Assembly (NCBI RefSeq): GCF_030068615.1
Contig: NZ_JASJOC010000001.1
Span: 1 to 64,000, forward strand
Length of the DNA: 64,000 nucleotides
Direction of reading: 5' to 3'
Source of the DNA: Halostagnicola sp. A-GB9-2
Lineage (GTDB): Archaea; Halobacteriota; Halobacteria; Halobacteriales; Natrialbaceae
Positions 13,940 to 19,418 of the stretch are shown here, piece after piece. A program made the position numbers and the translations under genes. The notes below the pieces were generated by a model. The model made no database searches and had not been told where the DNA came from. It saw nothing but the letters and a program-made list of their open reading frames with translations. How positions within the stretch are numbered: position 1 is the stretch's first letter; each line of letters starts with the position of its first letter.

Positions 13940-14594
13940 CGTCTGCGTGTGGTTGTTGTGGTTGGGTTGGCTCGTTCTGGGCCGATTCTTCCGGCGGCGC
14001 TTCGCGGGCAGTGTCCGTCATTCCGCGCGCCAGCGCCGTCGTTCCGGTTCGGGAGATTTCGCGGATGCCGAACTGGCCGAACGCTTCGATCGCCGAATCG
14101 ATCTTCTGGTCGCTTCCCGTGATCTCGATGGTCGCCGTCTCGGGAGTGGCGTCGACGGTCTTTCCGTCGAACATATCCGCGACAGCCGCGACCCGATCGG
14201 GACGCATCGCGTTGACCTTTACGAGCGCGAGTTCGCGACGCATCGCGTCGGGCTCGAGCTCCTGGACCGAAACGACCGGAACGAGCTTTCGAAGTTGCTT
14301 TTTGATCTGTTCGATACCGGGGTCGGGTTCCTCGACGACGAGGGTGATCCGCGCTCGGTCCTCGTCTTCAGTCGGGCCGACCGTGAGACTCTCGATGTTG
14401 AACTGTCGCCTCGAGAACAGCCCCGAAACGTCCGAGAGGACGCCCGGTTCGTGCTCGACGAGCGCCGAAATGACGGTTCGGCGCGGATCGTGCTGAGCCT
14501 CGACCTCGGGATCGACGCGAATCCCCTGTGCGGTGCGTCGTCCCTTTGGCGTGGGGCGTTCTTCGGGGGCTGGTCCGTCGAGTCCACCGCTCAT
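13932..14594 (-). CDS. ilvN: Acetolactate synthase, small (regulatory) subunit
   Basis: About 220 residues. The N-terminal ACT domain is at about 40-110 ([21 protein letters not shown], shortened here: [14 protein letters not shown]; then [12 protein letters not shown]), where valine feedback is sensed in this family. A second ACT-like half follows ([27 protein letters not shown]). A 35-residue Glu/Gln/Pro-rich tail is extra compared with bacterial IlvH. The ATG at 14594 overlaps the ilvB stop by 4 bp; a longer frame to 14855 only re-reads ilvB. It activates and regulates IlvB in the cytoplasm. Confidence 0.94.
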
Positions 14595-16405
14595 AGCTGA
14601 TCCTCCGCCAGTGCGAACTGGCCGTTGTCGCCGCCGCTTGGAACCATCGGGTAGACGTTCGCCTGCGGATCGATATGCGCGTCGATCACCGACGGTCCGT
14701 CGTAGTCGATCGCCGCCTCGATGGTGTCTGCGACCTCGTCGTACTCGTCGATTCGGAAGCCCTGCGCGCCGAACGCTTCGGCGAGCTTGTCGAATTCGGG
14801 CATCCAGTTGTACTCCGAGGCGGCGTGACGACCCTCGAAGAAGGCGTCCTGCCACTGTCGGACCATCCCGATGTACTCGTTGTTAAGCACCACGACGGTG
14901 ATGTCGAGGTTTTCGCGAACTGCGACGGAGAGGCCCTGAAGCGTCATCAGGAACGAGCCGTCGCCGTCGATGCAGACGACCTCCTGATCGTCGTCGGCGG
15001 CGATCCGCGCGCCGATCGCCGACGGCAGGCCGTACCCCATCGTGCCCAAGCCGTGACTCGAGACCCACGTCCGCGGTTCGGTGTAGGTCCAGTACTGGCA
15101 GGCCCACATCTGGTGTTGGCCGACGCCGGTCGTCACGACCGCTCGGTCGCTGGTCGCTTCGTCCAAGGCTTCGACGACGAACTCCGGTTGGACCGGTCGG
15201 TCCTCCGGGGCGGCGTAGGCCATCGAGTAGTCGGATTTCCACTGCTGACACTGAGCTCGCCATTTGGTTGCCTGCGGCGAGGTTTCCATTTCCTCGGCCA
15301 GTTGGGTGACGACCGTTTCGGCGTCGCCGATCAGCGGATAATCCGCGTGGATGTTCTTCGAAATCTCCGCGGGGTCGATGTCGACGTGGATCAGTTCGGC
15401 GTCGGGCGCAAACGTCTCGATACCGCCGGTGAGGCGGTCGTCGAAGCGCGTTCCGATGCCGATCAGCGTGTCGCAGTGGGTGACCGCCATGTTGGCGTAG
15501 CCGGTGCCGTGCATGCCGGCCATTTCCATCGACAGCTCGTGATCTTCGGGGAACGAACCGATGCCGGGCATCGTCGTGATGACCGGAATCTCGTGTTCGA
15601 TGGCGAACTCGCGACAGGCCTCGCTGGCCTCGCCCTTGATGACGCCGCCGCCCAGGAGCAAGGCGGGCTTGCTCGAGTTCTCGATCCGTCGAGCCGCTTG
15701 CTCGACGATTTCGGGATCCGCCCGCTCTTGAACCTCGTAGGTGTCCGGCACCTTCGGGTCGTCGGGCTCGTGATCCGTATCGGCTTTCGTCACGTCCTTG
15801 GGCAGGTCGACCAGGGTCGGTCCCGGTCGCCCCTCGCGGGCGAGTGCGAACGCTTCGCTCACGTCCGAGCCGACGGTGTCGGGGTCGTCCGAGAACGTGT
15901 TGTCCTTCGTGATCGGCGTCGTGACGCCGGTAGTGTCGGTCTCCTGGAACGCGTCGTTACCGACGAACTCTCGTGGAACCTGCCCCGTCAGTGCGAGCAT
16001 CGGGTCTGAGTCCATATCGGCGTCAGCGATCCCGGTGACGAGGTTCGTCGCACCCGGTCCGGAGGTCGCCAGGCAGATTCCCGGCTCTCCCGAGACGATG
16101 CCATAGGCGTCCGCCGCGTGGGCGGCCCCCTGTTCGTGAGCCATCGTCACGTGATAGATGTCCGAATCGTAGAGCGCGTCGTAGACGGGCATGATCGCAC
16201 CGCCCTGAACGCCGAAGGCGTACTCGACGCCTGCGTTCTCGAGCGCCCGAATCACCGACTGGGCGCCCGTCGTGACGGGTTCCTGTTCGGTGTCGGATTC
16301 GGCTCTCGAATCCTGTGTGGTCGCGGATTCGTCTGCGTGCTGTTCCCCTGTCGGCGGATCGTCCGTTTCGGTTGGTGATGTGATCGAGGAAGCGCGTTCG
16401 CTCAT
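14591..16405 (-). CDS. ilvB: Acetolactate synthase, large (catalytic) subunit
   Basis: A 604-residue thiamine diphosphate enzyme that makes acetolactate or acetohydroxybutyrate, the first common step to valine, leucine and isoleucine. The catalytic Glu lies in TMAHEQGAAHAADAYG, the FAD/central domain in the middle, and the TPP motif starts at GDGSFLMTLQG and ends in VVLNN. About 45 acidic and Thr-rich residues precede the conserved start of the fold (QSVIRALENAGVEYAFG). A GGGAGGA Shine-Dalgarno (16411-16417) lies 5 nt before the ATG. Upstream are a TATA-like element, a palindrome and a valine-rich short ORF, suggesting regulated expression. Confidence 0.95.
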   Translation of the reverse strand: MSERASSITSPTETDDPPTGEQHADESATTQDSRAESDTEQEPVTTGAQSVIRALENAGVEYAFGVQGGAIMPVYDALYDSDIYHVTMAHEQGAAHAADAYGIVSGEPGICLATSGPGATNLVTGIADADMDSDPMLALTGQVPREFVGNDAFQETDTTGVTTPITKDNTFSDDPDTVGSDVSEAFALAREGRPGPTLVDLPKDVTKADTDHEPDDPKVPDTYEVQERADPEIVEQAARRIENSSKPALLLGGGVIKGEASEACREFAIEHEIPVITTMPGIGSFPEDHELSMEMAGMHGTGYANMAVTHCDTLIGIGTRFDDRLTGGIETFAPDAELIHVDIDPAEISKNIHADYPLIGDAETVVTQLAEEMETSPQATKWRAQCQQWKSDYSMAYAAPEDRPVQPEFVVEALDEATSDRAVVTTGVGQHQMWACQYWTYTEPRTWVSSHGLGTMGYGLPSAIGARIAADDDQEVVCIDGDGSFLMTLQGLSVAVRENLDITVVVLNNEYIGMVRQWQDAFFEGRHAASEYNWMPEFDKLAEAFGAQGFRIDEYDEVADTIEAAIDYDGPSVIDAHIDPQANVYPMVPSGGDNGQFALAEDQL

Positions 16406-16416
16406 GTGGGTCCTCC

Positions 16417-16431
16417 CGCCGTTTTGCGGCG
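16417..16431. promoter_or_regulatory. Palindrome CGCCG-N5-CGGCG at the ilvB promoter
   Basis: A perfect 5-bp inverted repeat with a 5-nt spacer ends at the Shine-Dalgarno of ilvB. A TATA-like CTATATGA lies at about 16440-16447, so transcription would be expected to start near 16417-16420, inside the palindrome. It could be a repressor operator or, in a longer mRNA, a hairpin controlling access to the ribosome site. Confidence 0.4.
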
Positions 16432-16515
16432 ATTAGTTGTCATATAGTGTGTCGACTGCTGTGTGACTTGTCGCTGTGGAATCGATGCGAGGCCGGAACG
16501 AGAAGGAGGTGTGTG

Positions 16516-16532
16516 AGGGGCTAGACGGCCCC
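16516..16532 (-). other. Hairpin AGGGGC-N6-GCCCCT containing the leader ORF stop codon
   Basis: On the leftward strand AGGGGC and GCCCCT pair perfectly over 6 bp with loop CGTCTA. The TAG stop of the valine-rich short ORF lies across the loop and the start of the second arm. A pyrimidine-rich stretch (CCTCCTTCTCGTT) follows, but there is no long T run, so plain termination is uncertain. Confidence 0.45.
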
Positions 16533-16631
16533 TACAATAGCGAACTGAGCGGACACGCCGGTGTCGACCGCACTGACCACCAACTGTGTGCGTGACCTCA
16601 TTACCTCGACTGTAGCCATCTCGAGCGTCAT
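16521..16631 (-). CDS. Candidate ilv leader peptide (36 aa, valine-rich)
   Basis: An ATG at 16631 opens 36 codons that end in the loop of a hairpin 116 nt before ilvB. The product has eight Val, two Leu and one Ile, about a third branched-chain residues, and starts MTLEMATVEVM and ends AQFAIVGAV. It has few acidic residues, unlike ordinary haloarchaeal proteins. Leader peptides rich in the end-product amino acids, followed by a hairpin, control ilv operons in bacteria by attenuation; such control is not established for archaea. No clear TATA box lies before it, so it would be transcribed from leuA or from an unseen promoter. Coding is not proven. Confidence 0.4.
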   Translation of the reverse strand: MTLEMATVEVMRSRTQLVVSAVDTGVSAQFAIVGAV

Positions 16632-16661
16632 AACTCTTCTGTGTCTTGTTCGGACGTGATG

Positions 16662-16686
16662 GTTCCCGTAGCCGATGCTCGGGAAC
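16662..16686 (-). terminator. Hairpin just after leuA
   Basis: GTTCCCG and CGGGAAC form a perfect 7-bp stem with an 11-nt loop, 24 nt past the leuA stop. No T run follows on the leftward strand, so it may protect the leuA mRNA end or form the first hairpin of the ilv leader region rather than terminate transcription. Confidence 0.35.
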
Positions 16687-16709
16687 GCTTGCAAACAGGG
16701 AGAACATCC

Positions 16710-17940
16710 CTAGGCGCGCACCTCCTCTTTGTCTGGTGTGCGCTCGACGTCCGCTTCCTCGGCGAAGCGCTCGAGGTCGCTGACGGTGACGCGGCGCTTT
16801 TCGGCGCCGTAATCTTTGACCCGTCGAGTGACCGCGCGAACCTGCTCGTCCGTGGGATCGAACCCGCGCTCGTGCAGGCGCTCGCGGACCGAGTGAGTGC
16901 CGGTGTGTTTGCCCATGACCAGTTTGCGTTCCGCGCCGACCATTTCGGGGGTCATGACGCCCGGTTCGAACGTATCGGAGTTCTCGATGACGCCTGCGGC
17001 GTGGATCCCGCTCTCGTGGGAGAAGGCGTTGTCGCCGACGACCGGCTTGTTGCCCGGGGTCTCCATCCCGCTTTTTTCCTCGACGATGTCGGAGAGTTCG
17101 GTGATTCGAGTCGTGTCGATACCGGTATCGACCTGATAGAGGGATTCGACGGACATGACGAACTCCTCGTAGGCCGCGTTACCCGCTCGCTCACCGATGG
17201 AGTTGACCGAAACCTGCGCCTGATCGGCTCCGGCTTCGATGCCGGCGATCGCGTTCGCGGTCGCCAGCCCGAAGTCGTCGTGGGCATGGACGTCGATCCG
17301 TGCGTCGGTGTGATCGCACACCTTCTCGATCATCGCCCGGAATCGGCCGGGCGTGGCGACGCCGCAGGTGTCGGGAATGTTGATCCAGTCGGTTCCTGCT
17401 TCGGTGACCGCTTCGATCACGTCGATCAGGAACTGTTCGTCGGTTCGCGTCGCGTCCATCGGGGAGAACATACACGTTGCTCCCGCGTCCGTGACGCGTT
17501 CGACCGACTCGACTGCGTTCTGTACGACTTGTTCTCGTGTGGCGTGCATCGAATCTTCGATCTGGACATCGCTCGTGCTCACGAAGACGTGAACCATTTC
17601 AACGCCGGAATCAAGTGCTGCTTCGATATCACCGTCGACGACGCGGGCTAACCCGCAGGTCGTCGCGTTGGTGGCCGAAGCAATATCCCGGACTGCCTCG
17701 AATTCGGCGTCGGAGTTGACGGGGAACCCAGCTTCGATCACATGGGTGCCCATCTCGTCCAGAATCGAGGCGATCTGGCGCTTGTCGTCGTAAGAAAACG
17801 ACGTTCCAGGGGACTGTTCGCCGTCCCTGAGCGTCGTATCAAAGACTCGTGCAGTTTCGATTTCTTCAGTGGAATCTAACGTGCCCTGGAAGAACTCGAC
17901 CGCCCTGACTGGTATCAGAGCCGTTGTCTGGTGAAGACAT
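16710..17940 (-). CDS. leuA: 2-isopropylmalate / citramalate synthase, start uncertain with apparent frameshift at the N-terminus
   Basis: A DRE-TIM metallolyase of about 400 residues that condenses acetyl-CoA with 2-oxoisovalerate or pyruvate. Catalytic motifs are TTLRDGEQSPG at the N-terminus, HAHDDFGLA (metal His), and NSIGERAGN. The length shows that the large C-terminal leucine-sensing domain is absent or reduced, as in several archaeal LeuA/CimA proteins. The first ATG in this frame (17753) would remove the RDGEQ motif. In the correct frame, upstream to the TAG near 17977, there is no ATG, GTG or TTG; the family-like sequence begins around VRAVEFFQG at 17909. An ATG at 17940, correctly spaced from a TATA box, opens the neighbouring frame (MSSPDNGSDT), so one extra base near 17905-17915 probably separates the two. 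The end at 17940 is therefore a judgement. Confidence 0.85.
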
Positions 17941-18315: not shown

Positions 18316-18909
18316 TTATTCGAGCGCGTTCTGGTGAGTTTCGTACCGCTCGACGTACCGTGACTCGCAGGACGAACAGCAGAACTGTTTGAGTTCTCCG
18401 TCGACCGTCGCAGTGACGCCGTTGCCCGTAATCGCTTTCCCGCAGACGACACACTCGAGAGAGAATCCGGTCGCGGAAACGCCGAGGGACCGACTCGAGC
18501 GATTGAGGACCGTCACGTCGTATCCGAGCAGTCGCGTCAGGTCGAGTCCGGACTCGAGCCAGGACCGCGCGTCCGTCTCGGGGAGCGTCGCGTAGACGAT
18601 CAGCGATCCGTCGAGTCCTTCGAACACGTGTTCGGCTTCCTCGAGTGCGGCGACGGACTCGTACACGTCAGTAACCGCCTCCGGTTTCGGTTGCAATTCG
18701 ATCAGGACGGGAAGCGTCCGCTCGAGCAACGATTGGTCGACGTCGACGGTAAAGCCCCGAATCACGCCCTGTTCCTCGAGTCGGTTGACTCGATCTGAGA
18801 CCGCGGGCGGCGTCAATCCGACGTGGTCCGCGATGTCGCTATAGGGTCGTCGAGCATCGTTCGAAAGGAGCTGGAGAATCTCGAGATCGGTATCGTCGAG
18901 CGATCGCAT
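18316..18909 (-). CDS. Lrp/AsnC-family regulator with C-terminal TRASH metal-binding domain
   Basis: About 197 residues. The N-terminal HTH (LDDTDLEILQLLSNDARRP, then TPPAVSDRVNRLEEQGVI) is of Lrp/AsnC type. The middle resembles the Lrp effector domain (TLPVLIELQPKPEAV, SLIVYATLPE). The C-terminus has CVVCGKAI and FCCSSCESRYVERYE, the Cys pattern of TRASH domains, which bind heavy metals. In Halobacterium, an Lrp-TRASH protein (VNG1179C) activates a copper-exporting ATPase, so copper or a similar metal is the likely signal. The ATG at 18909 is used; in-frame extension to 19059 crosses the inverted repeats below and looks non-coding. Confidence 0.88.
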   Translation of the reverse strand: MRSLDDTDLEILQLLSNDARRPYSDIADHVGLTPPAVSDRVNRLEEQGVIRGFTVDVDQSLLERTLPVLIELQPKPEAVTDVYESVAALEEAEHVFEGLDGSLIVYATLPETDARSWLESGLDLTRLLGYDVTVLNRSSRSLGVSATGFSLECVVCGKAITGNGVTATVDGELKQFCCSSCESRYVERYETHQNALE

Positions 18910-18976
18910 ACCGAAAGTAGTGGGCGGGATCATATCAGCGTTCCCCGAGCCGGTCGCAGTGGATCCGTCCTGGATC

Positions 18977-19056
18977 ATACTCTCGGCTGTCCCTCTGTGA
19001 AGATTCTCGCACCACGGAGGCGGCGAGAATCTCGAACGACTTACAGCCGAGAATAT
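18977..19056 (-). repeat. Nested inverted repeats between the HxlR and Lrp-TRASH genes
   Basis: The outer arms are TCTCGGCTGT (18981-18990) and ACAGCCGAGA (19043-19052), perfect over 10 bp and extendable to 14 bp (18977 and 19056) with one G-U pair on the leftward RNA. The inner arms are AGATTCTCGC (19001-19010) and GCGAGAATCT (19023-19032), perfect over 10 bp with a 12-nt loop. The structure starts at the HxlR stop codon and ends about 67 bp before the Lrp-TRASH ATG. It could be a transcript-end structure, a folded 5' leader, or paired operators. Confidence 0.7.
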
Positions 19057-19418
19057 CAATCCGCGAGCGCGCCTTCCTCGAGATCAAGCCACGAACTCGC
19101 CCAGCAATCGATCTCTTCGAAGACCGGCTCGAGCGATTCGCCCTTCTCCGTGAGGCTGTAGTAGGTCGCGATCGGCGCGTCTTCTTCGATGCGGCGATCG
19201 ACGAAGCCCGTTTCCCCGAGGTCGTCGAGAACTCGAGAGAGGGTTCGGGCGTTCGCGCCGGTCGAGCGCTTGAGTTCGTTGAAGCGACGCTCGCCCTCGA
19301 GGAGGTCGTGCAAGACGGCGAGTCGCCACTGGGAGCCGATCTGCTCGAGCGATTGGATGACTGGACAGGCTTCGGCGTTCACTTCCTCGGCCGTAGAGTG
19401 CTTTTGGGCGGGTGACAT
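19056..19418 (-). CDS. HxlR-family transcriptional regulator
   Basis: A 120-residue winged-helix protein. It carries the conserved Cys of the family near the N-terminus (EACPVIQSLEQIGSQW), the helix-turn-helix RRFNELKRSTGANARTLSRVLDDL and the wing FVDRRIEEDAPIATYYSLTEKG. Such proteins often sense electrophiles or redox change through that Cys. It lies divergently from the VOC gene (173 bp between the starts) and upstream of the Lrp-TRASH gene. The likely target is the VOC/flavin reductase pair (inference). The ATG at 19418 is used; the longer frame overlaps the VOC gene. Confidence 0.87.
   Translation of the reverse strand: MSPAQKHSTAEEVNAEACPVIQSLEQIGSQWRLAVLHDLLEGERRFNELKRSTGANARTLSRVLDDLGETGFVDRRIEEDAPIATYYSLTEKGESLEPVFEEIDCWASSWLDLEEGALAD

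Follow-up and report, generated by a model that had tools for sequence, protein, structure and literature searches.

A conserved leader between leuA and ilvB of the Halobacteriales, built like a translation-sensing attenuator

The closest described counterparts of the element analyzed here are the bacterial leader-peptide attenuators, i.e. those of ilvGMEDA and ilvBN in E. coli, of ilvBNC in Corynebacterium and others of the ilv, leu, trp and pheST type. In these systems a short leader ORF carrying codons for the amino acid of the pathway is associated with an RNA hairpin, just before a biosynthetic or synthetase gene. Such attenuation requires a ribosome close enough behind the RNA polymerase to affect the transcript, and in Haloferax physical links of the polymerase with translation factors have been described (PMC8576121). 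As far as its description goes, the ilvB-II motif of Corynebacterium (PMC10272879) is comparable, being a conserved short ORF before ilvB that is reported to affect expression of the ilvBNC operon; this motif is actinobacterial, and the archaeal leader has no meaningful match to any Rfam family, T-box and other described RNA regulators included. No archaeal leader-peptide attenuator was found in the open-access literature; priority is uncertain, closed-access work (e.g. the early studies of the Haloferax trp operon) being outside that scope. Among the uORFs that long 5'-UTRs of Haloferax volcanii contain, mapped transcription starts place one of 26 codons before pheS and one of 23 codons before a trpS, presumably the same Phe- and Trp-rich leaders as those described below; they were reported only as possible small proteins, with no attenuation reading, and ilvB was not listed (PMC4983044).

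The leuA-ilvB gap was analyzed in a window of 64,000 nucleotides (the whole stretch of DNA under study) from a 4.68-Mb haloarchaeal genome (Halostagnicola, Natrialbaceae, order Halobacteriales). The genes follow each other on the minus strand in the order leuA, gap, ilvB, ilvN and ilvC, and all elements discussed lie on this strand. The IlvB protein is 96% identical to that of Halostagnicola sp. A56, and the two genes downstream of ilvB were identified by their Pfam domains (ACT/ALS_ss_C for ilvN, KARI for ilvC). The ilvB upstream regions of a first set of 111 genomes were compared, 71 from Natrialbaceae and 40 from other Halobacteriales of ten further families, together with a second sample of 80 ilvB loci from named species. 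The leader profile and codon counts were established on 57 representative genomes. Table 1 collects the features.

Table 1. Features of the leuA-ilvB region, with positions in the window
Feature	Position	Strand	Basis
leuA, upstream of the leader	16710-17940	-	HMGL-like and HCS_D2 domains; 5' end from junction analysis
ORF-B, 101-codon bridging frame from 2 nt past the leuA stop to the ilvB ATG (ATGA)	16402-16707	-	stop depletion; start position in relatives
Putative leader promoter, BRE-like purines and TATA box TTATGA (16633-16628); distance to the leader ATG 32 nt	16628-16643	-	57-genome profile; predicted start site
uORF1, candidate leader peptide MRSRTQLVVSAVDTGVSAQFAIVGAV, 26 codons	16521-16601	-	frame and stop conserved wherever the element is found; ATG in nearly all; Ile/Leu/Val enrichment
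Candidate control codons ATT GTA (Ile-Val)	16533-16538	-	ATT ATT GTA in many relatives
Hairpin TGTAGGGGC-CGTCTA-GCCCCTCACA, leader stop in loop/3' arm	16512-16536	-	GGGG/CCCC in all 111 loci
Leader stop TAG	16521-16523	-	TAG, TAA or TGA in relatives despite variable loop
Pyrimidine-rich tract downstream of the hairpin, candidate region of termination	16497-16511	-	positions +8 to +17 past CCCC mostly C/T
uORF2 (MTTNRRKTAGGPT), starting at an ATG within the ORF-B frame, TGA overlapping the ilvB ATG	16402-16443	-	same position in relatives, e.g. MTHYRTPPDRRTPAGGNR
Stem-loop into the ilvB Shine-Dalgarno GGGAGG	16412-16431	-	fold; GC stem in relatives
ilvB, acetolactate synthase large subunit	14591-16405	-	Pfam TPP_enzyme N/M/C

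An earlier note, made from the letters of the window, had pointed to a 36-codon ORF (16631-16521, minus strand, MTLEMATVEVMRSRTQLVVSAVDTGVSAQFAIVGAV) with eight Val, two Leu and one Ile, ending in a perfect hairpin shortly before ilvB. This ORF is present with the residues as counted, and its TAG falls in the loop and reaches one base into the 3' arm of an AGGGGC/GCCCCT stem of 6 bp; the gap to the ilvB ATG measures 115 nt. In all 111 genomes of the first set (eleven families) the leuA-ilvB gap contains a short ORF whose stop codon lies in the loop or 3' arm of a GGGG/CCCC hairpin. The ORF terminates with Ile-Val-Gly-x or a Val-Val variant, and ATTGTAGGGGC..GCCCC or a near form stands at the same position in every upstream region. 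The element is present at 76 of the 80 named-species loci; among the four misses, the sequence of L215 stops short upstream. In one more genome, L132, the search motif is absent, but S-I-R-V is kept together with a variant stem GGGCC/GGCCC, as read by eye. Of the Val/Leu/Ile codons and the hairpin, whose conservation the note had left to comparison with relatives, the terminal Ile-Val (or Val-Val) codons and the hairpin are kept, and so are the frame and its stop wherever the element was found. A strict automatic scan retrieved leaders terminating with (I/V)VG at 95 of the 111 ilvB loci and at none of the other genes scanned; the element was not detected in nine ilvB loci from other, non-halobacterial classes of the phylum. 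Single-sequence statistics are unconvincing: the folding energy of the hairpin in the window has a z of -0.6, and the own genome has 9 copies of the bare motif GTAGGGG-N4-9-CCCC against 22 of the reversed control. It is because of position-specific conservation, and not of such statistics, that the element stands out; on comparison of the genomes the observation is real and far beyond chance.

The start and the length of the leader had to be revised. The start codon at 16631 falls within the conserved TATA box and is therefore probably untranscribed; conservation points to the ATG at 16601 as the start, which gives 26 amino acids with six Val, one Leu and one Ile in place of the 36 codons of the note. 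In the 57-genome profile the promoter-like region extends 27-42 nt before the leader ATG, with a purine-rich BRE at -37/-33 and TTATA at -32/-27. The ATG of the leader frame lies, in nearly all genomes, 32 nt past the first T of a TTATA-type box, itself preceded by a purine run. This fixed distance of about 32 nt suggests that the leader ORF is probably leaderless, with transcription beginning at its ATG; leaderless transcripts account for 72% of the protein-gene transcripts of Haloferax (PMC4983044). A second TATA-like element, between the hairpin and ilvB, had been taken to indicate that ilvB can also start separately. The string exists, but a TATA-like match is found there in 4 of 111 genomes and the argument fails.

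The distribution of codons at the end of the leader was analyzed in the 57 genomes. The codon preceding an invariant GTA is ATT (41 genomes), ATC (15) or GTA (1), hence always Ile or Val. The share of Ile, Leu and Val in the last 12 leader codons is 44%, compared to 24.6 +/- 1.3% in dinucleotide shuffles; without the fixed Ile-Val it is 29% against 15.1 +/- 1.0%, and the other frames reach 3.5% (frame B, which lies one base upstream of that of the leader) and 24%. Clearer sensing ends are observed in the leaders of relatives, i.e. ..GGAVLPILLAIIVGAH, ..DAVVRTLIIVGAA and ..SGAIAVGSIIIVGA before the stop; the terminal codons often read Leu-Ile-Ile-Val. Counted from the first base of GTA, the leader stop of every genome ends after 12, 15 or 27 nt, and it mostly lies in the loop or 3' arm. 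Measured against a substitution null, amino-acid similarity is -0.08 versus -0.34 in the leader frame (frame A) and -0.16 versus -0.40 in frame B, with no gain in frame C. Against leader coding counts the absence of a third-codon-position substitution bias over the body of the leader ORF (2488/2576/2070); GC by codon position gives a weak leader-frame signal in Natrialbaceae and none in other families. The 36-residue peptide has no Pfam match.

The hairpin itself varies around a fixed core. In the window, folding lengthens the 6-bp stem by UGU/ACA past a one-base bulge. Among the genomes the pair next to GGGG/CCCC is C-G in 95, U-A in 5 and U-G in 4, with further extension by a variable number of pairs, and the GGGG and CCCC runs are spaced by 5, 6, 7 or 8 nt. 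The four central G-C pairs are invariant but belong to the search pattern, and are therefore neutral and uninformative on covariation. The 5' arm overlaps the Ile-Val codons. Downstream, T reaches 35-63% at +12 to +15 past the CCCC run and a second T-enriched patch is located at +35 to +38; unlike in a bacterial intrinsic terminator, no T-run directly follows the hairpin in the 57-genome profile. In Haloferax one tested hairpin terminated at 59% and a T-stretch at 95% (PMC7237163), and termination after the ilvB hairpin is plausible given the pyrimidine-rich tract. An antiterminator was not recognised for ilvB, a statement with no systematic search for alternative pairings behind it.

A second constrained frame, ORF-B, which the earlier reading had overlooked, crosses the hairpin and runs on to ilvB. 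Across 109 genomes frame B shows 4 stops where 98 are expected over the 100 nt upstream of the leader ATG, and 16 where 74 are expected from the hairpin to ilvB. In 101 of 104 genomes the leuA stop and the start of ORF-B are no more than a few nt apart; the frame ends at the ilvB ATGA in most genomes, at an internal ATGA in several others. Its product is basic (mean pI 11.2) and conserved little outside a core that overlaps the hairpin (YCRG-x-LAP), and its third-position GC is about 0.55 after the hairpin; by composition and conservation (pI, alignment, third-position GC) ORF-B does not behave as an ordinary small protein gene. As the product is basic and poorly conserved, we read the frame as a bridge: it probably carries ribosomes from leuA to ilvB, and would melt the hairpin on transcripts initiated at leuA. 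Since the frames overlap, the constraint on ORF-B may account for part of the conservation of the leader ORF. The leader frame has evidence of its own in the promoter spacing, the stops, the ATT/ATC exchange (silent in the leader frame, Cys/Arg in ORF-B), the branched-chain enrichment and the similarity above null. Within ORF-B, uORF2 is a probable element of translational coupling for ilvB; its counterparts in relatives often bear a Tyr-Arg motif. The second palindrome reported at the ilvB ribosome site was confirmed as a CGCCG..CGGCG stem reaching GGGAGG. In 61 of 66 Natrialbaceae the 35 nt preceding ilvB contain a GC stem of at least 4 bp (a count with no shuffle control), and outside this family a simple Shine-Dalgarno match precedes ilvB in 10 of 40 genomes. 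A -1 frameshift fusing the leader ORF to ORF-B was considered and set aside, no slippery site being recognisable by eye.

The gap thus holds an order-wide conserved leader which, in its sequence, has the anatomy of a translation-sensing attenuator. We consider it fairly probable that it is a cis-acting attenuator which senses branched-chain amino acid supply through translation, with ORF-B and uORF2 coupling ilvB. Three features of attenuators are found here: enrichment in codons of the amino acids concerned, a predicted upstream promoter and a hairpin overlapping the control codons. The architecture comes from the comparison of genomes, and from it we infer promoter activity, translation, termination and a response to amino acids. 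Transcription would start at the leader ATG. With ample charged Ile and Val tRNA, the ribosome would reach the stop and leave, the hairpin would form, and RNA polymerase would terminate or pause in the pyrimidine-rich tract that precedes ilvB. Under shortage of charged Ile or Val tRNA, the ribosome would wait with ATT, ATT or GTA in its A site. A stalled ribosome shields about 10-13 nt ahead. The front of the waiting ribosome would then cover the GGGGC arm, no hairpin would form and transcription would proceed into ilvBNC. ORF-B and uORF2, which end on the ilvB start codon, would couple translation of ilvB to upstream ribosomes, and on transcripts from the leuA promoter the ribosomes of ORF-B would melt the hairpin and so bypass it. 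The branched-chain leader-peptide attenuator of the earlier note finds strong support in the comparison, the frame, the Ile-Val codons, the stop within the hairpin and the promoter motif being all conserved, with parallels for Phe and Trp; its start, length and second TATA element do not hold, and its mechanism would be the one outlined above. Compared to the bacterial attenuators, the archaeal leader has a TATA/BRE-type promoter and apparently leaderless translation, its stop codon lies inside the hairpin, and its control codons overlap the 5' arm directly; moreover, ilvB has no recognised antiterminator and no U-run at the stem, and ORF-B runs through the whole. If this reading is true, ribosome-mediated attenuation would exist in the archaeal domain with a geometry of its own (codons on the hairpin arm, stop inside, bridging ORF), and the presence of the ilvB element across the order suggests a convergent or very old use of attenuation.

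The main rival retains the leader peptide but lets it act on translation: the stall or termination site would set reinitiation at uORF2/ORF-B and then ilvB, or would free the ilvB ribosome site. It draws on the fact that in most genomes reading frames terminate at the ilvB ATG, on the stem at the ribosome site of Natrialbaceae and on the absence of a classical U-tract. This stem, however, was scored in Natrialbaceae only, and because a simple Shine-Dalgarno is mostly absent elsewhere it is not a shared device, whereas the stop-codon hairpin is; we hold translational control to be unlikely, while giving it more weight than any of the explanations that follow. A functional small protein as the product of the region (ORF-B, about 100 amino acids with the YCRG-x-LAP core), with the leader ORF and hairpin as by-products, appears quite improbable. 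The strong protection of frame B from stops, the beginning of ORF-B at the leuA stop in most genomes and the frame-B similarity above null would agree with a protein, but the pI is unlike that of acidic haloarchaeal proteins, little is conserved beyond the motif overlapping the hairpin, the third-position GC after the hairpin is low for such a reading, and the ATT/ATC exchange would turn Cys into Arg. A protein would also leave the internal promoter, the stop of the leader frame and the Ile/Leu/Val enrichment unexplained.

Hardly more credible, and if anything a little less so, is a GGGGC/GCCCC palindrome acting as DNA operator for a regulator, e.g. of the Lrp type, next to an incidental ORF. 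The palindrome is perfectly conserved downstream of the promoter and a nearby ORF (18316-19059) resembles an Lrp/AsnC regulator (putative), yet a GGGG-CCCC spacing varying by several nt suits a protein site poorly, every spacing variant retains the Ile-Val codons and the stop of the leader frame, and one genome has a stem of different sequence. Chance, which the earlier note had allowed for and which would amount to a random ORF and hairpin in GC-rich intergenic DNA, is in keeping with the unremarkable folding and motif counts of the single sequence; it is refuted by the order-wide comparison, in which promoter, frame, codons and stop are conserved in register, and its probability is practically nil. 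The attenuator sensing Ile and Val supply is the reading that we consider most likely.

Leaders of the same type were sought gene by gene at other loci, those of pheS, trpB and ilvD in 20 genomes of nine families. Upstream of pheS we observed leaderless-looking ORFs such as MASEPHAGRTGHKRVAAPGFGFFFA, in the own genome MATESHVRASVTRKPQRSVSGFGFAFFR (G000:C33, L239), with relatives at L232-L249; the leader ends with GFGFFFA before its stop, and in several genomes the stop lies within a GC hairpin (GCCCGG-TGA-GCCGGGC). The second trpS of the own genome (L252, G000:C33) is preceded by the leader MRVALAWRWDVPSRADSSVVSADAA, and the loci L250-L256 have similar ones. Its WRW is located in the loop of a long upstream stem GTCCGCTCTC/GAGAGCGGAC, after which come a further stem and a run of pyrimidines; two relatives have CCC/GGG in the stem instead, a compensatory change. 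From its sequence the second-trpS leader looks like a full attenuator. With the strict scan, Phe-rich leaders were found at 14 of 20 pheS loci and at none of the second trpS, trpB, ilvD or ilvB loci, and WxW leaders at 6 of 7 second-trpS loci and 1 of 20 trpB loci.

The 5' end of leuA shows another arrangement. The frame of LeuA contains no ATG, GTG or TTG before the DTTLRDGEQ active-site motif (window 17940-17888, minus strand), and a leaderless-looking ATG (17940-17938) opens MSSPDNGSDTSQGGRVLPGHVRFH out of frame. This out-of-frame ATG and a G(G/A)T-CGA-GTT-CTT junction are present at 75 of 79 leuA loci; a +1 ribosomal shift at the junction would yield LeuA. The start-codon problem of HVO_1510 is known, and ribosomal slippage has been mentioned for it, with speculation on leucine (PMC8305020). 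The arrangement fits the theme of an operon which reads amino-acid supply via translation. It seems on balance probable that haloarchaea use leaderless mini-ORF translation as a general amino-acid sensor, for Ile/Val at ilvB, Phe at pheS, Trp at the second trpS and possibly a leucine-linked +1 frameshifting at leuA. Unannotated haloarchaeal mini-ORFs can then be regulators, and the ilvB element with its Phe and Trp counterparts makes a system that can be tested in an archaeon amenable to genetics.

As negative controls, trpB and ilvD have essentially no leader by the same tests (0-1 of 20), and no His-rich leader was found at hisS or hisG. In the search for hisG, three matches of identical score were observed on contigs C3, C5 and C7 of one genome, G071 (L359, L372 and L373), which corresponds either to a duplication or to redundancy of the assembly.
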